From Labrys monachus (GTDB lineage Bacteria; Pseudomonadota; Alphaproteobacteria; Rhizobiales; Labraceae), in the NCBI RefSeq assembly GCF_030814655.1, contig NZ_JAUSVK010000001.1, positions 2,623,501-2,687,500 of the forward strand: a stretch of 64,000 nucleotides of DNA, given 5' to 3'. The notes under the pieces were generated by a model. The model was not told where the DNA came from. It saw nothing but the letters and a program-made list of their open reading frames with translations, and did not search any database. Shown here one piece after another: positions 2,527 to 56,895 of the stretch. Position numbers and translations under genes: made by a program. How positions within the stretch are numbered: the stretch's first letter is position 1; the number at the start of each line of letters is the position of its first letter.

Positions 2527-3020
2527 GGCCTGCTTTCATGAGGGGGCGCCGGGTCGTCCCGGTGGGGCGGGGATACCGGACGTCGGTAGCGGATGGCCTC
2601 CGCGCCATCCTGGTAATAGCCGGCGACCCGCTTGAACGGCCGGAACCCCGACCGCTCGAACAGCCGCTGCGCCGGCAGGTTGTCGAAGCGGGTCTCGAGG
2701 CGGAGTTCGGTGGCGCCCGCCCGGCCCGCCCGATGCGCGGCATCCTCGATCAGCAACCGGGCGATGCCCTGCCGCCTGGCCTGACGGGAGACGGCGATCG
2801 AATAGAGCCTGGCGACGCGGGTACGGGCGTTCCGAAGCACGACCGAGCAGCCGATGACCGCGGGGCCCTCGGCGACCACGGTCACGGCAGCCGCCGGGCT
2901 GGCGAGCAGTTCGAGCCAGCTGCGCCGGGCGATCCTGTCCGTGGCGAAGGCGGCGGTTTCGAGGTCCATCAGGGACGGGAGGTCGTCTCGGGTCGCTTGG
3001 CGCAGTCGAAGGCTTGTCAT
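2511..3020 (-). CDS. GNAT family N-acetyltransferase
   Basis: This 169-residue GNAT enzyme would transfer acetyl from acetyl-CoA to an amine. The acetyl-CoA site motif A is visible as RQARRQGIARLLIEDA, preceded by beta-4 (RLYSIAVS) and followed by ELRLETRFDNLPAQRLFERSGF, the usual motif B with an NxxAxxLFExxGF signature. The N-terminus (MTSLRLRQATRDDLPSLMDL) is typical of RimI-type acetyltransferases. The end overlaps the RimK-like ligase by 16 nt, so the two are one transcription unit and probably act on the same target. The fused peptidase C39 domain of some relatives is absent. Confidence 0.85.
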   Translation of the reverse strand: MTSLRLRQATRDDLPSLMDLETAAFATDRIARRSWLELLASPAAAVTVVAEGPAVIGCSVVLRNARTRVARLYSIAVSRQARRQGIARLLIEDAAHRAGRAGATELRLETRFDNLPAQRLFERSGFRPFKRVAGYYQDGAEAIRYRRPVSPPHRDDPAPPHESRPCQAK

Positions 3021-3220
3021 GAACCGAACGCATGTCCGCTGGAGACACTCGAAAAATAGGCCTTTGCCGCAGGGGCCACAAATCAGGAAAAAATAAGGGC
3101 TGCGGCTTGCATCCGCCGGGCGGCGGCGGGGTGTGCGTTGAAATCATTCGTTTTTTTCCTGCCCGGGACGGATCCGAAGGCGTCAGGCCCTCGTCAAATC
3201 GACGAATGGAGGCGTTCGCC

Positions 3221-38073: not shown

Positions 38074-38148
<75 letters not shown>

Positions 38149-38209
38149 TTTTTTTGCGAGCAATCTCAATAACATGCTGTACTTGCTAGGGTTTCTGGGC
38201 CGCTTTTGG

Positions 38210-38229
38210 TACAGTGAGCTGGTACAGTG
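38210..38229 (+). repeat. Arm-type repeats GGTACAGTG near attL
   Basis: GGTACAGTG occurs at 38210-38218 and 38221-38229, about 57-75 bp inside attL. A third copy, within the shared 13-mer TTGGTACAGTGAG, lies about 60 bp inside attR (56796-56808). The symmetric placement suggests integrase or excisionase arm sites. Confidence 0.6.
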
Positions 38230-38232
38230 CGC

Positions 38233-39888
38233 ATGTCTCTTCCCCCTCCGAAACGTGATTCTCAAACAGGCCGTTGGAAGTTCCGCAAGGCGGTTCCGCT
38301 CGATCTACGAGAGCGAGTCGGCAAGCAGGAAATCATAAAATGGCTCGGGGCGGATGCTCCCAAAGCGCGTGAAGCCAACGGCGAACTGCATCTGTATTGG
38401 GACAAGCGCTTTGCCGCGCTACGCGGTGGGGCTGGAGATGACACCCTGTCTCCAAGGGACGCCGCCGTCCTATCCGGGGAATGGTACCGGTGGTTCGTCT
38501 CACAGAGGGAGCACGAGGGGGACACCTCCCCGGCTGGCTGGCTTCACACCTTGGACATGCTCGAGGACATACGGTCATCCGTGGTGTCTCGCGACGATGA
38601 AAGCGAAGTTGCGTACACGGAACAGGATGAATTCGCGCAACCCCAAAGAACTCCCTCTGCGGGCTTGCTAGAGCGTCGCGTCAATGCCTTCCTGGAAAGC
38701 CATGGACACGTCGAACGGTTCTTGGTGGAAACGGGCCGTGCCCTCTCAGACGAGTCGCTACGGGGCTTCCTGAGAACGATGCTCGGGGATTTCTACGCCG
38801 CCCATCGGATTCTCGCGAGGCGAGCCGGACGGGACTTCGGAAAAGACGAGCATGCCGAGAAGCTGCCGACACCTTCGTCAGCAACACCCACCTCGCCCCC
38901 GCGGCGTAAAGGCCTCGGTATTCTTGATGTTTGGGAGAAGTACGCATCGACCATTGCTCCTGCTGCTTCCACCGTTCGGCGTTGGGCACCAGCCATTAAG
39001 GCCTTCGACGCGTTCATTGAGGGTCGCGGAATGGAGACGGTCACGCCCGGCGATGCCACGTTGTTTGCAGACCACCGCGTCACTCAGGGCGTTTCAGCGA
39101 CCTCCGTTCACAAAGTGGAATTGGCAGGCGTGAAGCGAATGTTCAGCTTCGCACATAAACGCGATTGGCTTGCGGTGAACCCGTTGGCTGGCCTGCGGAG
39201 TGAGCGCAGGAGCAATGAGGACGAACGGGAGCGCGAGGGCCGAGACTTCCACCCTCCCGAATATCGGGCAATTCTCCGCGCTTCCCGCAACATCTACGCG
39301 GCTCCAGGCAGATTTGAAGTCGTCCGCCAGAACGCCACGCGCTGGGTGCCTTGGATATGCGCCTATTCGGGAGCCCGCCCCGGCGAGGCCATCCAGTTGC
39401 GCAAGGAGGACTTCGGCATTGAAGACGGCATCCCGTTCTTCCATATTCGCGGTAGCGCGGGCACGGTGAAGACAGGCAAGGGACGTAAGACGCCTATCCA
39501 TCGCCATCTCATCGCTCAGGGCCTGATAGACTTCGTCCACAGGGCCGCAGACGGCCACCTCTTTGTCTCGATCAAGGGGGAGGGCGAGAAGGCTGTAGCT
39601 CAGGCCATTGATACGGCACGCGGGCGCCTGGGCGAATGGGTGCGCAGCATTGGCGTGAACGACCCCGAGATATCTCCAAATCACGCATGGCGGCACACCT
39701 TCAAGACCATAGCTCACGACACGGGCATGTCTGAGAAAACGGCAGACGCTATCTGCGGGCATAGTCCGCCCACTCAAGGGCGCAAGTACGGCAAGGTCTC
39801 GCTGGCAGCCAAGGCTGCAGCGCTGGCAGCATTCCCCGAATTTGCTCTTGAGGAGGCCTCCGCAGCTCTCAGGGCAAAAGGCGGCTGA
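38233..39888 (+). CDS. int: Tyrosine site-specific integrase
   Basis: The 551-residue integrase is of the phage/island type. The N-terminal arm (MSLPPPKRDSQTGRWKFRKA) and core-binding domain (about 225-330, GILDVWEKYASTIAPAASTV) precede a C-terminal catalytic domain. This has box I GARPGEAIQLRKEDF (Arg), HAWRHTFKTIAHDTGM (His-x-x-Arg), GHSPPTQGRKYG (His and the nucleophile Tyr). It lies 80 bp downstream of tRNA-Thr and must catalyse integration there. ATG 38233 or GTG 38227 could be the start. Confidence 0.93.
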   Translation: MSLPPPKRDSQTGRWKFRKAVPLDLRERVGKQEIIKWLGADAPKAREANGELHLYWDKRFAALRGGAGDDTLSPRDAAVLSGEWYRWFVSQREHEGDTSPAGWLHTLDMLEDIRSSVVSRDDESEVAYTEQDEFAQPQRTPSAGLLERRVNAFLESHGHVERFLVETGRALSDESLRGFLRTMLGDFYAAHRILARRAGRDFGKDEHAEKLPTPSSATPTSPPRRKGLGILDVWEKYASTIAPAASTVRRWAPAIKAFDAFIEGRGMETVTPGDATLFADHRVTQGVSATSVHKVELAGVKRMFSFAHKRDWLAVNPLAGLRSERRSNEDEREREGRDFHPPEYRAILRASRNIYAAPGRFEVVRQNATRWVPWICAYSGARPGEAIQLRKEDFGIEDGIPFFHIRGSAGTVKTGKGRKTPIHRHLIAQGLIDFVHRAADGHLFVSIKGEGEKAVAQAIDTARGRLGEWVRSIGVNDPEISPNHAWRHTFKTIAHDTGMSEKTADAICGHSPPTQGRKYGKVSLAAKAAALAAFPEFALEEASAALRAKGG

Positions 39889-40102: not shown

Positions 40103-40627
40103 TTGACGCCCGCAGACTACACCGCAATCGTGGTGGTTCCGACGGTTCGCGAATTTCTCTTGGCGCGGGTCAACGCACGGCTCGCTTACCTTAGTTGCGT
40201 CGCCTCGTACCACGTTATCGATTATTTGGCGGTTGCCGAGGGCCGCACCGGGCAGAACAAGACCTCTTCTATCATCGATAAGGTAATTAGCTATTGCGAC
40301 CCCGCCCTCCGTCTCGTCCAAGGGCTCTGCAATGGTACAAAGCACGCTGAGGCTGGCAAGGGACCGCAACCGGGCAAAGAGCAATTGGTAGGTCCATTTG
40401 CCTTCGGTCAAGGCGGATTCGGCGTGGGACGATTCAGCGGGCCGCCCGGCCTCGTCATCCCGCATAATGGTACCGCACTCTACATTGACGAGGCGGTCCA
40501 AAGCCTCCTCCTTGCGCTCGCGTCGCTATACCCCATCCATCTAGCCGCAGGCGCCTTTGCTTTTTTCGACGAACACATGCGGAATGGCCATCAAGCAGCT
40601 TGGGCTGGATTCAATGCCGGCCCATAG
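40103..40627 (+). CDS. Unknown helical protein with CNGTKH motif
   Basis: The 174-residue protein starts at TTG 40103 (AAGGA 8 bp upstream). The N-terminal half is helical: IVVVPTVREFLLARVNARLA then SCVASYHVIDYLA. CNGTKHAEAG follows at about residues 77-86. A D/N-x-x-K-H motif after two helices is reminiscent of HEPN-like or immunity proteins, but this is inference. The C-terminal half is glycine-rich. Just downstream is an N-terminal fragment of a paralogue. I cannot assign a function. Confidence 0.55.
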   Translation: MTPADYTAIVVVPTVREFLLARVNARLAYLSCVASYHVIDYLAVAEGRTGQNKTSSIIDKVISYCDPALRLVQGLCNGTKHAEAGKGPQPGKEQLVGPFAFGQGGFGVGRFSGPPGLVIPHNGTALYIDEAVQSLLLALASLYPIHLAAGAFAFFDEHMRNGHQAAWAGFNAGP

Positions 40628-40836: not shown

Positions 40837-41075
40837 TCAAATAACTCAACAATGCATCGTGCGACACTGTGCACGGGCAAGTCGAAGGTCGCTCGTCAAG
40901 GCGGCTGTTGACCATAGAGGCTGGCCCTGGGTGCGTGGCACGGAAGAAGAAAGACTTGCAAGGTTACCCCTGCAAGGCCGATGAACGGGTGTGACGATTT
41001 TTGGAGGCCGGGCGCGGACTTCTCCGCTGAGCCTGCCCTTGCGACAGAGAAGATGTTTTGCCGGGTTCGGCGCAC

Positions 41076-41891
41076 TCAATTCCAGAAGCCTATTTTCGTC
41101 AAGAACGCGTCGACACTGGCCTTCCATCCCAGGGCATACTGAATATAATTGTGGCCTTCCTTCCCATATGGCGGTACCTCCAAAAATTTTACGCTTCCGC
41201 CCGAAGTAACAAATGCGTCTCTTAGAGATTTTGCAACATCGATGTTTATAAAATGATCGTTTTCACTATAGATCCACAATTCGGGAACTTTGCTATTTTC
41301 TCCGTACTGCTTGAAGGCTGATACCAGTTCATCCTGACAATTGACATGGTCAGGTCGATCAGACCCATGGCCACCTGCAAAGCTGATTACACCAAGCACC
41401 TTTTCTTTTGTGGCGGCGGCGACGGATACCAACCCCCCGACGGAGTATCCCACCAAGACAATTCTCGAAGCATCTATCGTTGGATCCCCGCTAAGCGCGT
41501 GAATGGTGGCCGTGATGTTCTCGGCCCCCGCGAGCCCGACATCATAGAAGTCCGGGCGAGAACAATCCCTCTTATAGAATTCTACCGTCGGGCCATTATT
41601 TCCATAGCCGCGGCGGATGGGGACTGCTACGGCGGCGCCACTGTTGGCGAAGATGCGGGCAACATTTGCAAGCTCTCCCGGACCAAGCGTGCGGATAATT
41701 GACTTGTCGCGCGCCATGCCGTGGGACAGGATAACGAGAGGGAACGGCCCCTTCCCATCCGGTCGGTACAATGTGATTGGTATGCCGGTCCCATCGACGT
41801 CGGCCTGAAGAGTCGATACGGTTACGCCGCCAGCAAGCGCGGCACTCGTTCCTAGAATAAGAAAAGAGAGCAATATCAAAAGTTTGTACAT
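41076..41891 (-). CDS. Exported alpha/beta hydrolase (dienelactone-hydrolase-like)
   Basis: The 271-residue secreted or periplasmic hydrolase has a signal peptide MYKLLILLSFLILGTSAALA. The fold markers are the oxyanion segment LVILSHGMARD, nucleophile elbow VLVGYSVGGLVS (G-x-S-x-G), acid candidate in IYSENDHFIN, and His in KEGHNYIQYA. Cleaved substrate is unknown (ester, polyester or lactone). Codon use is AT-richer than the backbone, and it sits just downstream of a phage-helicase relic. A longer start at 41999 would remove the signal. Confidence 0.8.
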   Translation of the reverse strand: MYKLLILLSFLILGTSAALAGGVTVSTLQADVDGTGIPITLYRPDGKGPFPLVILSHGMARDKSIIRTLGPGELANVARIFANSGAAVAVPIRRGYGNNGPTVEFYKRDCSRPDFYDVGLAGAENITATIHALSGDPTIDASRIVLVGYSVGGLVSVAAATKEKVLGVISFAGGHGSDRPDHVNCQDELVSAFKQYGENSKVPELWIYSENDHFINIDVAKSLRDAFVTSGGSVKFLEVPPYGKEGHNYIQYALGWKASVDAFLTKIGFWN

Positions 41892-41994
41892 GACAGGTTC
41901 TTTGCCGTATACGCATGTAGGCCTTGCCATCACGGTCATATGGATTTTGCCCTCTGTCAACTTATCGGCAGTGCTCACTTGACAATCCCCTTCG

Positions 41995-42040
41995 CTCACC
42001 TCGCCGGTTATCCGACCCGCATAACGGTCCTCAGCACGCG
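41995..42040 (-). pseudogene. Third relic of phage helicase C-terminus
   Basis: The minus strand here encodes RYAGRITGEV in one frame and a preceding FRVLR in another. It corresponds to VLKDRYTGRATGEV of the better preserved copy at 43545-43830. The DNA aligns along about 45 bp with one base missing. Only this fragment remains. Confidence 0.5.
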
Positions 42041-42168
42041 GAAGTCGCCCCAGATGGGCAAGTCGAGGTGCCCACTGCGGTGGTGGCTAAAAGACGTAGA
42101 GGCCGCCCGGTGTTAAACAGTACCGCCTTGCGGGCGGTTGGTGCGGCCTCTCGCCATCGTGGGTTAGC

Positions 42169-42723
42169 CTATCCGGTTAGCAGCCTTGGTCTTAATACCG
42201 AGATAGGTGGACCCTGCATTGAGCCCGGCCCGGCAATCTGCAATCCGAGGTTCATGAAGTTAGGCTTCTGCCCCCGCGGAACCGAATTGATTTGGCTCAC
42301 GGCCTGATAGGCCTTGCCGCGCTTTTCGTCCTGTAGCTAGCTGGGCCGTAGACCAGTCGAGGTTCTCGTCAAGGCGGCCGTTGTAACGCCCTTCCTGGGC
42401 ATACATGTCCCTCAAGAGGCCATCCACGGTCGTCCCGCCGATACCGTTCTGGTCGGCCGCTACGGTGGTCGAGGCGCGGGCCGCACGGGCTTCCAGGGCC
42501 GTGTCGAACCTGTCGGCCGCCGTGGCGTCCTGCTGCTGGGCTTGCTGCCTGCCGAGGGCGCGGACGTTGTCTTCGTAGGCGGCCGTGCCGTTGCGGGCTT
42601 TGCCTCGTTGCGCCTGTTCATGGCGTCAGCCTCCTGAGATTGACTCATAAAGCTCGCGCCGGTCTGCGCTGCGGCTACCGCGAAGGAGCCGATAGCGAGC
42701 GTGATGTGGTCACAGATAGTCAT
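42169..42723 (-). pseudogene. T7 gp14-type internal virion protein, two frameshifts
   Basis: The frame begins MTICDHITLAIGSFAVAA (the MCDP-x-TLA-x-x-SFA signature of podophage internal core proteins) and continues to MNRRNEA. A +1/-1 shift then moves coding to the next frame, ARNGTAAYEDNVRALGRQ followed by DNA-coded LEARAARASTTVAADQNGI and VDGLLRDMYAQEGRYN. A second shift near 42339-42345 gives LQDEKRGKAYQAVSQINS and stop TAG at 42169-42171. In T7-like phages gp14 forms part of the DNA ejection channel. It is a clear pseudogene. Confidence 0.8.
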
Positions 42724-42935
42724 CTACCTTTTCAAATGTGATGGAAAGTTGGGGGGAGCAGTCCTCGGTTGCGGGCCTTCGTTTCGATGTCGAAGGCTAA
42801 GCAGCGCGTTCGCGCAGCCGCACCCGACCAGACCCTTCGCAGGGCCTCGGGTAAAAGCATGTGTCCTCTCGCTGGAGTGACTGGAATTGAAAAAGAAAAA
42901 ACCCCGCCGAAGCGGGGCCGTTGTTTATTTTTTGC
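42724..42935. repeat. Duplicated leader region, copy 1
   Basis: This block upstream of the gp14 relic is similar to 45745-45970. Shared stretches are GAGCAGTCCTCGG, CGCGCAGCCGCACC, GCAGGGCCTCGGGTAAAAGCA and an A-rich tract before a CCCCGC hairpin. It probably was the 5' leader and terminator region of the phage gene in both copies. Confidence 0.7.
42889..42917 (-). terminator. Rho-independent terminator upstream of the gp14 relic
   Basis: On the minus strand CCCCGC-ttcg-GCGGGG (42902-42917) is followed by TTTTTTCTTTTT. It would stop transcripts coming from the right before the gp14 relic. A degenerate equivalent is at 45909-45955. Confidence 0.7.
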
Positions 42936-43002
42936 TATTAGCTATATTAGGTTTCGAACCGGCTTTTTGTTAACAACTACGTTCGGGCAATGGAGTCTTT
43001 AG

Positions 43003-43548
43003 ATGTCGACGTGGAATGAATTTAAAGGCAAAATAATTGAAAGGAGAGATTCTTTTAGAACTGACCATCGCATAGCTCACGAATTCGCACTTCGTTTTAT
43101 TGCACACTTTAGACACAAGATCGAAGCACAGCCATCTTATATGGCACGCATGTCTGGACAAATGGTACAGCTACCATATGTTTATGATTTAAAAATAAAC
43201 GAAGGCGGAGTAGCCCAAGTAATTGAGGATTCGACGCATTCGATGGATTTTTTACACCTAAGTAGTGGCTGGTGGGATCTAGCGTTTGCTGTGAAAATAG
43301 GAGATTCATTTCCAGCTCAGTCTGGCGAGCTTGTTGTTGTTCGCTTTCAGTTTGTATTTGATGGAAACGAAGCCCTGATTGCGCTTCCTACTCCACTAAA
43401 ATCTCCTAAGGTCGACATACTGGCTGAAGATACTTGGCACCTGCTTTCGGATGCTGTTATCACTGCAATTTATTCGCTCATTCAAAACCCGATTGCGGGC
43501 AGGCAAAAACCAAATCCTGGGATGGGTCTTGCAAGCTTTGCGTTTTAG
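43003..43548 (+). CDS. Unknown AT-rich island cargo protein
   Basis: The 181-residue soluble protein begins MSTWNEFKGKIIERRDSFRT. It has mixed alpha/beta character with IAHEFALRFIAHFRHKIE, DSTHSMDFLHLSSGWWDLAF and QSGELVVVRFQFVFDGNEAL. No motif I can name. The gene is strikingly AT-rich against its flanks, a sign of recent transfer. Its stop TAG (43546-43548) overlaps the stop of the opposing helicase relic, so it is inserted exactly at the 3' end of that gene. Confidence 0.7.
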   Translation: MSTWNEFKGKIIERRDSFRTDHRIAHEFALRFIAHFRHKIEAQPSYMARMSGQMVQLPYVYDLKINEGGVAQVIEDSTHSMDFLHLSSGWWDLAFAVKIGDSFPAQSGELVVVRFQFVFDGNEALIALPTPLKSPKVDILAEDTWHLLSDAVITAIYSLIQNPIAGRQKPNPGMGLASFAF

Positions 43549-43830
43549 AAAGGACAGTCGGCGGCGACCCGGGTTGGGGTTTTGGTCGTGTCGGTGAAGC
43601 CGTGGGCGCCAGCTTCATCGGGGGGCTTCGGTCTCGAAGAGCGTACCCGTGTCGCGGTCGTATCCGAGGTAGATCACCTCTCCGGTTGCCCGGCCCGTGT
43701 AGCGGTCCTTCAGCACTCGAAAGACGGTGATCGAGCGCCACCGCTCGTCTTCGTGCTGCTGGTCTCTTTCGAGGCCGAACATGTAGTGACACCAAAAGCC
43801 GATGGCTGCGGTGCGTGAAATTGCATACAG
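43545..43830 (-). pseudogene. Phage DnaB/gp4-type helicase C-terminus, frameshifted
   Basis: The minus strand encodes CHYMFGLERDQQHEDERWRS then VFRVLKDRYTGRATGEVIYL and GYDRDTGTLFETEAP. These are the last motifs of T7-like primase-helicases (the VLK-DR-TG-x-TG...YD-x-x-TG-L signature). A run of six C at 43617-43622 shifts the frame, and the natural C-terminus DEAGAHGFTDTTKTP continues in the next frame to TAA at 43545-43547. Upstream of about 43830 the sequence no longer looks helicase-like. Confidence 0.75.
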
Positions 43831-44133
43831 GAAGCAGGACAGAAACCTTGATGCCAGCGTGGACTCGGCAGCGCGGCTTGCGAGCGCCTCCGAAGAGCCA
43901 GGAAGCCCATGTCGCGTGTCTGTTTCCCTTGAGGCCAACACCATGCCTCTCCTAGAAAACGCCTCTGGCATCATGGACAAGCGTTGGGGTTACGAGAGGC
44001 TGGGATATTCGCAGCGCTGACACGCCTACCGGGGCGCTTCGGCGACCGTCCATGTGGCGTCAGCCATTGCAAGCCTGACCCTTGGTGGAGTGGCTGGTTC
44101 TTCGATGCAGATGCGAACGTCACCTTGTCGGCG

Positions 44134-45237
44134 TCAATGCTGGCGACTCTTGGGCTGGGCTTTAGACGCAGCCGCCCCACGCCGCGAAGCGTTACGGCCC
44201 GGAGGCAACGACCCTTTCCGCTGAAACCATAACTGAACGACCTTACCCTCGACATAAGGCCTTCCGATTTCGATGAGGGCGGCGACGGCGAGGGCGACCA
44301 GGGTGCCAATAACGATAAATATGATGTCACGCGTCTCGCTGGCCGTAACGGATTGCCAGATGAATTTCACTTTAGGGGCCGCGAGACCAGAACTATTCGA
44401 CGTGTCCACTTTTGGAAGTGACACGACGCTGCCGAGCATCTCGGAACCTGTCACGAGATTGACGCTACGAACTTCATCGGCGTCCTCATCGTCGAAAGCC
44501 ACCTGGGAGGCCCCGATGAGATTCGTTGACGCTGACAATGGTTGCGAAGGTTGGTCCGGGAAGCCAAGATTCGACAACACTCGCGATTCATCTTCTGGAG
44601 CCGTGGCTAATTCCTCCGAAACCTGAAGCGAGCGTGTAGAAAATGTATCGTGAACGGATACATTTGGGGTGTCGCAGTCCACAAAATTAGGGGCTGGTCC
44701 GGTGAACTTTATCTCGTACGAATACGACGATTGATCATCAAAAATATTGGACTCTGGAATCCCCGCGCTTAATCGCTCGCTAAGTGAAGGCGAAACTAGT
44801 GATCCCGCTTTGCCGCGGACAAATTTTTCGCTAGAGACGGATTTATAACATTCCGGGGTCGTCCCTGCCGCAAAAGGTCCAATTCGTATTCGGGTTATGC
44901 TTGAATCGATTTGACGAAAGATGATGCGCATTCCATTTTCCACCGCGCGCAAATCGATCTGCGGTCCCGAAGTCCCTGGAGGCGCCTCAAACATGAAATT
45001 TAGCCCCTTTTGAGCGGGGCTTCGCTCCACATGCGTCACAAGCGACGTCAGCCAAAGTGTTGCTGCGACGCAACTCGCACAAATGATCGCCCAAGCGATG
45101 GTATCGACACGAATTCCGCGTGGTGGTTCGGCGTTGGCAACCTCGCTGGTCGACTTACCTTTTGTGATACGCCGCAGCGCGGCCTTCTGAGCCACACGCG
45201 TTGCAATGCGTTCGCGGGGACCTAGCTTCATGCCCAT
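44134..45237 (-). CDS. Unknown membrane-anchored protein with two TM segments
   Basis: The 367-residue protein has a basic N-terminal tail, TM1 at about 48-70 (TIAWAIICASCVAATLWLTS), a large extracytoplasmic domain (about 71-310), and TM2 (IIFIVIGTLVALAVAALIEI). A basic C-terminal tail ends QRKGSLPPGRNASRRG. The outer domain has one Cys pair (PECYK, VDCDTP). No family is recognised. It lies between the helicase relic and a gp14 fragment, in the same position as other cargo genes of the island. Start MGMKLGPRER; Met 3 is an alternative. Confidence 0.65.
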   Translation of the reverse strand: MGMKLGPRERIATRVAQKAALRRITKGKSTSEVANAEPPRGIRVDTIAWAIICASCVAATLWLTSLVTHVERSPAQKGLNFMFEAPPGTSGPQIDLRAVENGMRIIFRQIDSSITRIRIGPFAAGTTPECYKSVSSEKFVRGKAGSLVSPSLSERLSAGIPESNIFDDQSSYSYEIKFTGPAPNFVDCDTPNVSVHDTFSTRSLQVSEELATAPEDESRVLSNLGFPDQPSQPLSASTNLIGASQVAFDDEDADEVRSVNLVTGSEMLGSVVSLPKVDTSNSSGLAAPKVKFIWQSVTASETRDIIFIVIGTLVALAVAALIEIGRPYVEGKVVQLWFQRKGSLPPGRNASRRGAAASKAQPKSRQH

Positions 45238-45627
45238 TCTCCGGAAGCCCGCGCGCCATCTCTCCAGCGACGATAGTCGTCAACACCTTAGGATAGCAAG
45301 ATGTTGTCAACGGCCTGTTGGGCTTTGGTGTTTACCGCGACGAACATGCCAGCGGATGGCGGGGTGATTGACGATGGAAAGCACCGGCCAAGCAGCCTGG
45401 ACCGTTACGGGGCCTATTAATGGTGGTAGAGGGTGGGTAGGGGGCAGCCCGGAGGTGAAAGACCATGATCATCTTCCACCTCCAGTGTTCATCCCGAGAA
45501 GACTGACAGAGACCGGGAGCGGGAAAGAGGTTATTTCCTCAGCTACCGCCATCATCACGGCCTTTGCTTGGCCCGCTGCTGAGGCGGGACCCATCACAGC
45601 ATCGTGGAGAGGTAAGGCCCATGCCAT
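45238..45627. other. 390-bp intergenic region, no gene recognised
   Basis: Neither strand shows a convincing coding frame with a ribosome site. The right half lies just downstream of the truncated gp14 start and may be residual phage DNA. Confidence 0.5.
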
Positions 45628-45744
45628 TCAGGATGGTGAGAACGGCCACCATGATCTGGCTTTCGGTGTGCATGAGTGCGAGTCCTGCAGCGTTCCCGAC
45701 GCTACCGCGAAGGAGCCGATGGCAAGCATGATAGGGTCACACAT
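45628..45744 (-). pseudogene. Second gp14-type N-terminal fragment
   Basis: The frame starts MCDPIMLAIGSFAVAS, nearly the same as the start of the gp14 relic at 42723, and then diverges into unrelated residues before a stop at 45628. Only the first 15 or so codons are phage gp14. The upstream DNA is also duplicated (45745-45970 with 42724-42935). Confidence 0.7.
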
Positions 45745-45970
45745 AGTCAATTTCCTTTTCGATTTGGTAGGGAGTTGGGAGCAGTCCTCGGATGCGGCGC
45801 GTGTGCGCAGCCGCACCTGATCAGACCTTTGCAGGGCCTCGGGTAAAAGCAGGTGTCCTTCCGCCGGAGTAACTGGGGTGAAGCCAGAATGGCGTTGCCC
45901 TCAGAGGGAAAAAAGAAAAGGCCCCGCCAACGCTCCTGTGAAGACGGATTGAACGGGGCCGTTTGGGGTA
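45745..45970. repeat. Duplicated leader region, copy 2
   Basis: This matches 42724-42935 as described there. The terminator-like hairpin is present as GGCCCCG...CGGGGCC, but its loop has gained about 20 bp. The A-rich tract AAAAAAGAAAA (45909-45919) is kept. The stretch 45971-46141 has no gene. Confidence 0.7.
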
Positions 45971-46141
45971 GGTTATGGTGAGAGATGGAGGAGCGAAGGA
46001 GAATGCGCTGGGTCTGGCTACCTCGTTACATAAGTCAAACGCAAAAGTGACGCTTTTAATTGGGACTAATGCGAGCGGTGCAGCGAGGGCTAGCGTTTTG
46101 ACGTATGCCCGCATCTTGCGTTTTGCCTCCCGAGAGCCCTA

Positions 46142-46576
46142 TCACCCATGACGCCGAAGTGCCTGCGGCAGAGGTACCGGCGTCCAGCGACCGACGGCGC
46201 TTAGGGCGTAGTCATTTTTGCACCTCTTACTAATCTCGACATTTTCGTGATAAAAAAATGCCAGCTTCCACAAATTAAACCCGTCGCCCACGTGCTCGAA
46301 GCTTCCAATGTATCCGGCGTTTCCAGTATAATTTCCAAATTTGTCCAATGGTGTCATATTTCCGCAGACGATAATTCCGTCAGGGCCTCGCGCGGCTACC
46401 ATATAATTGATCATCGCATTGTCGGGACGCCCCGTCTTTGATTCAATGGCCTGTTTTACCATCACAACTTGTGCCGAGGTTAACGCCACGTGCTCATAAG
46501 CCTCGGGATGAGGCCGCATTGAAGCGCAGCCCGACAGCGCAAACGCCGCCATCGTCAATATCGTTAACCCGCGCAT
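46142..46576 (-). CDS. Small lipoprotein of unknown function
   Basis: The 144-residue predicted lipoprotein starts MRGLTILTMAAFALSGCASM, with lipobox ALSGC. The mature domain has YEHVALTSAQVVMVKQAIES, MINYMVAARGPDGIIVCGNM and NDYALSAVGRW. One further Cys pair is present (VCGN, KRCKN). No family is recognised. It lies just downstream of the helicase relic at 46679-47110, as island cargo. Confidence 0.65.
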   Translation of the reverse strand: MRGLTILTMAAFALSGCASMRPHPEAYEHVALTSAQVVMVKQAIESKTGRPDNAMINYMVAARGPDGIIVCGNMTPLDKFGNYTGNAGYIGSFEHVGDGFNLWKLAFFYHENVEISKRCKNDYALSAVGRWTPVPLPQALRRHG

Positions 46577-46678
46577 GCTTGCCACTCTCCTGTTCTCACA
46601 CGACGAAGGCGCGTCATGTTGGTGTGGTCAACTTTTATGCCCCGTCTTGTAAGACTATCCAGTGAAATTTCACGGGTC

Positions 46679-47110
46679 TTATTGGAGCGCGCCCCACCTG
46701 GCCGGATGACGTTGCGACACGTTCAAAAAGGGACGCTCGTCCGCCATGGCAGTCGTCTTGGTCGTATCGCTGAAGCCGTGCCCGCCAGCATCGTCGGGAG
46801 GCTGCGTCTCGTGGAGCGTGCCCGTGTCTTTGTCGTAGCCGAGGCAGACCGTCTCGCCGGTCGCCCGGCCCGTATAGCGGTCCTTCGGCACCCAAAGACG
46901 GTGATCGAACTCCAGCGCTCGTCTTCGTGCTGCCGGTCCCTTTCGAGGCCGAACATGTAGTGGCGTCGGAAGCCGATGGCTCGGCAGCCTTTGAAGTGAC
47001 GGATCATCGCCCGTCCACCTTCCTGGTGAGGTTCCCTTCGGACGTGGCCGAATGGGTAACGAGGTGGGTGAGGACGCAAAATCATCGGGCAACACTGGCC
47101 GAGAGTTCCA
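46679..47110 (-). pseudogene. Phage helicase C-terminus, second large relic
   Basis: One frame encodes REPHQEGGRAMIRHFKGCRA then IGFRRHYMFGLERDRQHEDE and WSSITVFG. After a frameshift near 46887 the next frame gives VPKDRYTGRATGETVCLGYD, KDTGTLHETQPPDDAG and GFSDTTKTTAMADERPF. These are the final motifs of T7-like primase-helicases (H-x-E-GG-R...HFKG-x-x-AI...YMFGLERD). The copy extends further N-terminal than the 43545 relic. Confidence 0.72.
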
Positions 47111-47300: not shown

Positions 47301-47600
47301 ATGGGTCTACTTGTGAAAATACAATTTCTGTTTGTTGTCGTAGCGCTTGCACTTGGTTCTTGTGCTCCTACCCGCCCGAACATTCATGTGGACTCCAATG
47401 GCAATCCTAGGCAGGAAGACGTCGCGGCTGCATGTAGCTCCCATTTCTCACGACAGTCACCGCAATGGGAGCGCTGCATGCAGCGCGTGAGTCAATCGGC
47501 AGCAAACATTGCCCGCTGCATCAAGACTGTCCCGCTGCCGGGGCTACAACGGTGCGTGATGCAGAAGTCGCACCCGGCGTTGGGGGCCAACTTTCAATAA
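47301..47600 (+). CDS. Small Cys-rich lipoprotein
   Basis: The 99-residue product has a signal ending ALALGSCAPTRP (lipobox LGSC). The mature part contains five Cys after the lipid Cys (AACSSHF, ERCMQRV, ARCIKTV, QRCVMQK), suggesting disulfides. It is hydrophilic with no known domain. ATG 47301 fits the signal peptide; earlier starts would bury it. Confidence 0.6.
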   Translation: MGLLVKIQFLFVVVALALGSCAPTRPNIHVDSNGNPRQEDVAAACSSHFSRQSPQWERCMQRVSQSAANIARCIKTVPLPGLQRCVMQKSHPALGANFQ

Positions 47601-51145: not shown

Positions 51146-51796
51146 TCACAGCCCCCAAGCGGCCAACGAATCTTCCGCCTTCGCGGGCTCCTCTCTCACC
51201 CTGATAACCGTCTGCCGCGTCAAACCGGCAGCCCTGGCAATCTCCGACGTGCCCGCTCCGCCTGCCAGCATATCCCGGACGGTCGTCAGTTGCTCCCGGC
51301 TGAAGCTCGGCTTGCGCCCAAGATATGCTCCCTTCTCACCTGCCTCCTGCTTGGCCCTGGCAGCTGCTATACCGGCCTTCTGGGCTTCCTTGGTAGCTTC
51401 CGCCTGGGCCTGCGAAAGGGCCGCCATGAAGCCGATGAGGGCATCCCTGACGGCTTGCTGCATGGGGTCTTTCGTAGCTCCGTCGAAGGTCAGTCCATTG
51501 ATAACCGTCCGGATGACAACTCCCCGACGCATGAACTCTCGGATAGTGTCGCAGACATCCTGATAGTTGCGGCCGAGACGGTCTACCCAGCGCACCACTA
51601 GGGTGTCGCCCGCACGGAGGATGTCGAACAGCCTGCGGCCCTGAGGGCGCTCCATGAGCGTAGTGGCAATACCGGATACGCCATCATCCGAAACAACCTC
51701 ATCGACCTTGAACCCTGCCTGTTCGGCTTGGGTGCGCTGGTGGGTGATGTTCTGTTCGGTGGTCGAGACGCGGGCGTAAAGGACGGTGCGAGACAT
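51146..51796 (-). CDS. Serine recombinase (resolvase family)
   Basis: The 216-residue small serine recombinase has the N-terminal catalytic motif YARVSTTEQN with the nucleophile Ser, followed by LVVRWVDRLGRNYQDV (Arg/Asp triad part). The E-helix with GFMAALSQAQAEATKEAQ leads to a C-terminal HTH (AGGAGTSEIARAAGLTRQTV). It resembles Tn3-type resolvases/invertases. It may resolve or invert segments within the island. ATG 51796 matches the family start MSRTVLYARVS. Confidence 0.93.
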   Translation of the reverse strand: MSRTVLYARVSTTEQNITHQRTQAEQAGFKVDEVVSDDGVSGIATTLMERPQGRRLFDILRAGDTLVVRWVDRLGRNYQDVCDTIREFMRRGVVIRTVINGLTFDGATKDPMQQAVRDALIGFMAALSQAQAEATKEAQKAGIAAARAKQEAGEKGAYLGRKPSFSREQLTTVRDMLAGGAGTSEIARAAGLTRQTVIRVREEPAKAEDSLAAWGL

Positions 51797-52049
51797 GGTG
51801 ACGAACATTCCAACTGATGTACGAAAGGGTACTGTCCGTAGAAATGCATGTCCGTAGATGGAAGTCAACCCTAGCGTACAACCCCTAACCCACACATCCG
51901 AGTGTCCGTTGCGGTATACCCCTGCGGACGAGCGTCTGGGTTGGGCTCCTCCCTTTCCCCGTGCTATGCTCCGTCAATACTACAGGCGGCTTGGGCGCCG
52001 ACATTCACGGACGACAGCACAACGCCTAGCCACGCCAACGGCGCTGACA

Positions 52050-56808: not shown

Positions 56809-56867
56809 AGCCGTCGCGGCTCAAAATTCTCAAGTAAAAACAATAGCATGTTCGCGGTGCTGCCGAT

Positions 56868-56895
56868 TTCAATCCTCTCTTGCAGCACCATTTTT
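56868..56895 (+). repeat. attR: right copy of the 28-bp repeat
   Basis: Identical to 38126-38153. Here it carries only the 3' tRNA part without a tRNA body, as expected for the distal attachment site of a tRNA-Thr island. Confidence 0.93.

Follow-up and report, generated by a model that had tools for sequence, protein, structure and literature searches.

We analysed 64,000 nt of Labrys monachus DNA (the window; NZ_JAUSVK010000001.1, positions 2,623,501-2,687,500 of the forward strand, assembly GCF_030814655.1), which contains an island of ~18.7 kb at a tRNA-Thr gene. Within this island, frameshifted or truncated copies of two T7-like phage genes, the primase-helicase gene (gp4) and gp14, stand beside cargo open reading frames (ORFs) without internal stop codons. 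They are grouped here as units 1 and 2 and a probable unit 3, with the following features in window coordinates.

46727-47034, minus strand: helicase tail 1 (unit 1, probably the older), from profile match and decay count
46142-46585, minus strand: c1, lipoprotein-like cargo of 147 residues, phrog_2320, in the slot of unit 1
45920-45961, minus strand: terminator-like hairpin of unit 1, recognised by eye and by folding, not in the pattern scan
45855-45873, minus strand: DNA-polymerase leader element of unit 1, with 4 mismatches in 20
45701-45744, minus strand: gp14 copy B (unit 1), gene start, about the first 15 codons, from DNA match to copy A
44134-45237, minus strand: c2, a 367-residue ORF between units 1 and 2, with no family match
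43545-43938, minus strand: helicase tail 2 (unit 2, probably the younger), with an internal deletion and a frameshift, from profile match and decay count
43003-43548, plus strand: c3, 181 residues, 43% G+C, in the slot of unit 2, its stop overlapping the helicase stop
42900-42919, minus strand: intrinsic-terminator-like hairpin of unit 2
42863-42881, minus strand: DNA-polymerase leader element of unit 2, exact
42169-42723, minus strand: gp14 copy A (unit 2), whole length, frameshifted, from profile match
41996-42047, minus strand: helicase tail 3, a fragment of ~52 nt, from DNA match to tail 2 and motif score
41076-41891, minus strand: c4, alpha/beta hydrolase, 271 residues from the ATG at 41891 (ORF from the GTG at 41999)

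In a profile search of all window frames, helicase tails 1 and 2 matched the C-termini of T7-like gp4 proteins (E 3.7e-18 and 4e-32, respectively). The two tails were 83.8% identical over 229 nt (E 3e-64), and each carried one small indel within the shared stretch. In a self-search of 19.5 kb, tail 3 aligned with tail 2 at 79% over 53 nt (E 5e-5), and its motif ranked third in the window with a score of 49, the highest score at an unrelated place being 27. The helicase tail was matched by 51 phage records. The closest helicases were found in metagenomic virus contigs (88% over query residues 1-56), followed by those of Rhizobium phages TRX32-1 (73%) and RHEph01 (67%); a scan of the genome collection with the helicase of a metagenomic relative gave 10 loci. 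All three minus-strand helicase relics noticed in a preliminary description of this stretch were thus recovered.

gp14 copy A matched, in three pieces, a profile built from phage proteins only (E 6.7e-20, 4.8e-7, and 3.3e-7), and gp14 was matched by nine phage records. With the phage profile, copy B alone did not reach significance (E 0.49), and it is identified by its DNA match to copy A. The leader/gp14-start blocks of A and B aligned over 211 nt in the self-search; leader and gp14 start together agreed at 186 of 215 aligned bases, with a score of 231, whereas 200 mononucleotide shuffles averaged 17.7 and never exceeded 36. The preliminary description had seen two gp14-start relics and had taken the region for decayed T7-like phages. 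The profile matches of helicase and gp14 support the latter view, the self-comparison it proposed found the blocks related in sequence, phages carry both families, and copy A proved to span the whole gene. A third helicase/gp14 junction, placed downstream of the hydrolase, was dropped: it depended on a 31-nt match of 40880-40910 to gp14 copy A (E 0.09), which lay outside the top eight gp14-like protein places.

The duplicated leader, previously assigned to gp14, is indeed duplicated but belongs to the DNA polymerase. It contains a 19-nt element, GTYACTCCNGMGAGAGGAC. When up to 4 mismatches were allowed, 15 loci had this element immediately ahead of the DNA-polymerase start, and in 3 cases it preceded a different gene between helicase and polymerase. 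Allowing up to 3 gave the identical 18 matches, all at the helicase/polymerase junction; the set searched comprised 113 loci, several of them from the same phage, and 2.8 Mb counting both strands. A 20-nt piece of the leader matched four phage loci exactly or near-exactly. The element is present in RHEph01 and TRX32-1 and absent, at 4 mismatches, from LUZ100, BB8, and Pasto; two of the four differing positions of the unit 1 element are variants found in RHEph01. When 2.9 million viral contigs were scanned with a pattern, 48 contained the element, 37 of them new by name, i.e. not among the helicase-similarity loci. All 48 placed it at a T7-like helicase/DNA-polymerase junction (helicase upstream and polymerase downstream in 46, polymerase only in one, helicase only in one), and the next gene was the polymerase in 45 and another gene in three. 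The element matches showed 30 distinct 33-nt contexts. Sites of the element include L083:9873, L100:12378, and L018:11748. The element was also seen before other interval genes at L018:10641 and 11748, L106:11699, and L124:2456 and in loci L151, L162, and L168; in L018, two copies enclose slot genes, as though a leader copy had come along with the cargo. Since the element precedes the polymerase in relatives, the order helicase-cargo-leader is the normal one, and the one abnormal feature is the jump from leader to gp14. The coding part of the polymerase is gone from units 1 and 2. The peptide FDIET in unit 2, considered as polymerase coding sequence, was not used, as it was the fourth-best match in the window.

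In relatives, the interval in which c1 and c3 stand is variable. The polymerase lay downstream of the helicase in 87/87 loci holding both, a set that includes many near-copies of one phage. The interval, measured to the start of homology, ranged from a short overlap to 5650 nt; it was at least 250 nt in 47/87 and at least 400 nt in 35, and its ORF content varied. The largest slot seen, L099:11608-17258 (5.6 kb, many ORFs), belongs to a T7-like sequence in a Binatia assembly. Hence a variable slot between helicase and polymerase exists in relatives, and c1 and c3 occupy it in units 1 and 2. The preliminary description had suggested a moron-type exchange site between two conserved phage genes; the site is real, but its borders are helicase and polymerase, not helicase and gp14. 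It had also reported a different AT-rich gene beside each helicase tail. The genes do differ, but they are AT-rich only in relative terms (43% G+C for c3 and 52-54% for the hydrolase, c1, and c2, versus 63% for the window). The overlap of the c3 stop with the helicase stop at 43545-43548 was confirmed. c1 matched the profile of phrog_2320, which has no annotated function (E 1.7e-8), and c3 was present in one of 385 class genomes, its own. Six loci had a minus-strand ORF of at least 100 residues in the slot; these may be shadows of plus-strand genes and were not used as parallels of c3.

In units 1 and 2, the gp14 start follows the element within ~150 nt, and the two are alignable throughout save for a 30-nt gap and small ones. 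The distance from polymerase start to gp14 is ~15 kb in RHEph01 and ~12 kb in a metagenomic relative (G005), and helicase and gp14 lie ~13 kb apart in the only class genome with both genes (G321). gp14 was not found around the element in the stretches examined of the 48/48 motif contigs. Conversely, helicase, polymerase, and element were absent within 4-5 kb each side of gp14 in 18 virus loci, seven of which are weak, 31-residue matches; gp13 was present in 17 of these 18. They were likewise absent from seven gp14-like genome loci of ~3.3 kb each (~1.5 kb per side), in five of which direct tblastn fails to see gp14. Against viral contigs, the relic gp14 found no relatives, the G005 protein three loci, and the TRX32-1 protein 15 (seven by 31 residues only). 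The order helicase-cargo-gp14, which the preliminary description had proposed to look for in a phage, was thus not found in any virus stretch examined or in the genome loci. As gp14 lies far from helicase and polymerase in relatives, the leader-to-gp14 joint is best read as a deletion in this lineage, of ~12-15 kb relative to known phages; the last gp13 codons before gp14 are suggestive only. This deletion scar, from polymerase leader to gp14, is common to units 1 and 2. We consider it highly improbable that two related prophages suffered independent deletions with near-identical ends, for example at a recombination-prone sequence: such events would fit remnants of unequal age without copying, but the units align through the joint with few gaps, which is rare for independent events, and a flanking repeat was not identified.

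The decay of the two units was compared at 185 aligned helicase sites, a change at codon position 1 or 2 being scored as derived when only one tail departs from the phage majority. At three thresholds, derived changes in tail 1 and tail 2 numbered 13:1, 11:0, and 6:0 with 16 relatives and 15:1, 13:0, and 11:0 with the five nearest relatives (p 0.0002-0.002 in five of the six settings, p 0.03 in the strictest, 6:0). A count with one outgroup gave 14 changes in tail 1 versus 1 in tail 2, and invariant residues were broken at 5/23 in tail 1 and 0/24 in tail 2. Differences common to both tails, relative to the nearest phage, fell at third positions in 19 of 26 cases, which argues that the common ancestor of the tails was a functional phage. 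Copies made in place from a dead remnant should decay alike; the tails decay unequally, which argues for separate times of death. Hence units 1 and 2 are unlikely to be copies of one dead remnant and probably stayed alive until different times, in support of the repeated accretion proposed earlier. A duplication in place, after which one copy had its cargo replaced, would account for the repeated blocks being spaced almost equally (2992-3027 and 3174-3176 nt). However, besides the unequal decay, which already disfavours it, the c1 and c3 regions are on opposite strands and have nothing in common, and the stretches separating the repeated blocks are without similarity; we regard this account as improbable.

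The scar either predates the split of the units, in a functional lineage, or the young remnant acquired it by copying from the old one. In the second case, a complete younger prophage beside the old remnant would have lost the polymerase-to-gp13 part by recombination via the helicase/leader and gp14 flanks. This would explain why two remnants of unequal age have one scar, and the units lie ~3 kb apart in the same orientation. On the other hand, leader and scar (186/215) are no more alike than the helicase tails (83.8%) within error, so that recent copying is not visible, and the 19-nt elements of the units belong to two natural variants. We hold such copying possible, though only tentatively. 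In the first case, a mobile deleted T7-like lineage, in which the scar arose once and which was transmissible with a helper phage, would have diverged, exchanged cargo, and entered the island at least twice. A common scar, different cargo, and unequal decay are all expected from it, and tail 2 is nearly free of decay changes though scar-bearing. Against it, neither such an element nor a second example of a deleted transmissible phage satellite was found in the collections searched. Furthermore, the L. monachus genome yielded no related RNA polymerase (a PF00940 search gave no match, nor did its controls) and no phage DNA polymerase, the one match of the polymerase search lying inside a 1018-residue open frame, presumably host PolA. 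A relic of a single-subunit phage RNA polymerase was not found in the window either. We think this origin unlikely.

Taken together, the region is likely to be a graveyard of temperate T7-like prophages, at least two and probably three in number, within a separate tRNA-Thr island. Their nearest named relatives would be Rhizobium phages RHEph01 and TRX32-1. Units 1 and 2 retain the junction of helicase 3' end, cargo, terminator, and DNA-polymerase leader, and unit 3 retains only a helicase fragment beside the hydrolase; unit 1 would have died long before unit 2. While the phages were alive, c1 and c3 may have been accessory genes swapped via conserved flanks, and after decay these genes and their flanks may have outlasted the rest, perhaps through usefulness to the host.

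Several observations weigh against this prophage graveyard. No other phage gene was recognisable in the window with profiles from 570 ORFs (best E 0.005 beyond helicase and gp14 among the matches listed). c1-c4 were matched in no phage record, c1 and c3 were matched in no viral contig in a search that reaches close relatives only, and no cargo resembled the slot ORFs of relatives (best E 0.073), which leaves the arrival of the cargo with the phages an inference. In addition, c2 and c4 are not cleanly inside the slot. As for the ages, the test covers 185 sites, with near-copies among the relatives used; of the five residues broken in tail 1, two (495 and 497) lie near its frameshift, and third-position changes, 9 of the 24 polarised changes, fail to separate the tails.

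The leader element is a candidate regulatory site. Its sequence allows a hairpin that has one unpaired base and carries the Shine-Dalgarno-like GAGAGGA inside the stem. The fold is not exceptional, as 7.6% of 500 mononucleotide shuffles fold as well, and the longer leader did not score as a structured RNA (z -0.7 and -0.1). Covariation of the hairpin was not seen: changes fall in the loop, at the unpaired base, and at one C/U position, the other positions having been fixed by the collecting pattern. An Rfam search of one 181-base stretch of L083 gave a single sub-threshold chance match beside the element, and a literature text search with four versions of the element sequence returned three papers, all of them, judging by titles, on human or medical topics. 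The leader was rejected as a phage promoter, because it does not resemble the annotated phage promoters of LUZ100 and a locus has a single copy of the element or at most two. We think it quite unlikely that the units are what remains of a transmissible, satellite-like lineage which, having lost the polymerase-to-gp13 part but kept helicase, leader, and gp14, exchanged cargo at the helicase slot and invaded the island more than once, with the leader serving as a regulatory site, possibly an autogenous translational operator.

The island that holds the units is bounded by a 31-nt repeat of the tRNA 3' end, and its end features are as follows.

38074-38148, plus strand: tRNA-Thr (GGT), at the left end of the island
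38123-38153, plus strand: left attachment-site copy (tRNA 3' end), 30/31 identical to 56865-56895
38227-39888, plus strand: tyrosine integrase of the island, 553 residues, DUF6538 type, at the left end
56865-56895, plus strand: right attachment-site copy

The preliminary description had assigned the integrase at tRNA-Thr to the T7-like phages, which its type contradicts: the integrases annotated in four T7-like phages have 337-358 residues, and that of LUZ100 matched the island integrase weakly (23% identity, E 1.5e-4). An integrase of the T7-like kind was not present here. Relatives of the island integrase were found in three of the four other genus genomes, one a weak match, in a searched set of five genomes (genus plus family). 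In the LUZ100 record, a tRNA-Leu adjoins the phage's own integrase, as is also described in PMC10134795. With an integrase unlike the T7-like type here and a tRNA-Leu beside that of LUZ100, the prophages therefore seem to have settled in the island rather than to have built it.

Comparison of the window with five phage records and two metagenomic phages, both of the latter split in two pieces, revealed no further convincing phage gene: beyond the weak integrase match, all E values were 1e-4 or worse. Upstream of helicase tail 1, a small lipoprotein-like ORF (47304-47600, plus strand) may be another passenger gene, and beyond the hydrolase a 174-residue ORF (40103-40627, plus strand) weakly matched phrog_33893 (E 3.8e-4). 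A serine-recombinase-like ORF (51146-51895, minus strand) was recognised by eye within the island. PADLOC, run on seven proteins including the 47304-47600 ORF for a defence role of the cargo, gave no match. The predicted structure of c3 was not usable (mean pLDDT 49). Promoter-like sites in the region numbered 6 versus 5.2 expected, and terminator-like sites 11 versus 9.4 expected.

The region is ordinary in kind, consisting of decayed prophages and passenger genes; what is unusual is that remnants differing in age have a scar in common, and that the polymerase leader element is sharply conserved. To our knowledge, the carriage of accessory genes by temperate T7-like phages has been little described, and this region would show what outlasts them, namely the helicase-polymerase slot and its passenger. 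Whether deleted T7-like elements can spread is a question prompted by finding one scar on remnants that differ in age. The 19-nt element, which pinpoints the T7-like helicase/DNA-polymerase junction (48/48), is maybe the more important by-product and is directly testable as a regulatory site.

T7-like phages are described in PMC10134795 as long regarded as strictly lytic. The units share the helicase and gp14 families with the temperate T7-like phages (RHEph01, TRX32-1, LUZ100, and Pasto; Autographiviridae), and the polymerase leader element with RHEph01 and TRX32-1; unlike in those phages, there are scraps only here, the polymerase-to-gp13 part is missing, and there is no phage-type integrase. 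Broken phage genes beside intact passenger genes also recall the 'grounded' defective prophages as presented in PMC6379469, from which this region differs in its two units of different age with one common scar and in that the function and retention of its passengers are putative. Finally, the leader resembles the translational operator of the T4 DNA polymerase gp43, as outlined in PMC3014915, in placing a conserved, hairpin-capable element at the translation start of a polymerase, although its sequence and phage group differ and any binding or repression through it would be putative. By that account, the T4 hairpin lies ~40 bases upstream of the start codon, whereas here GAGAGGA itself is in the stem.

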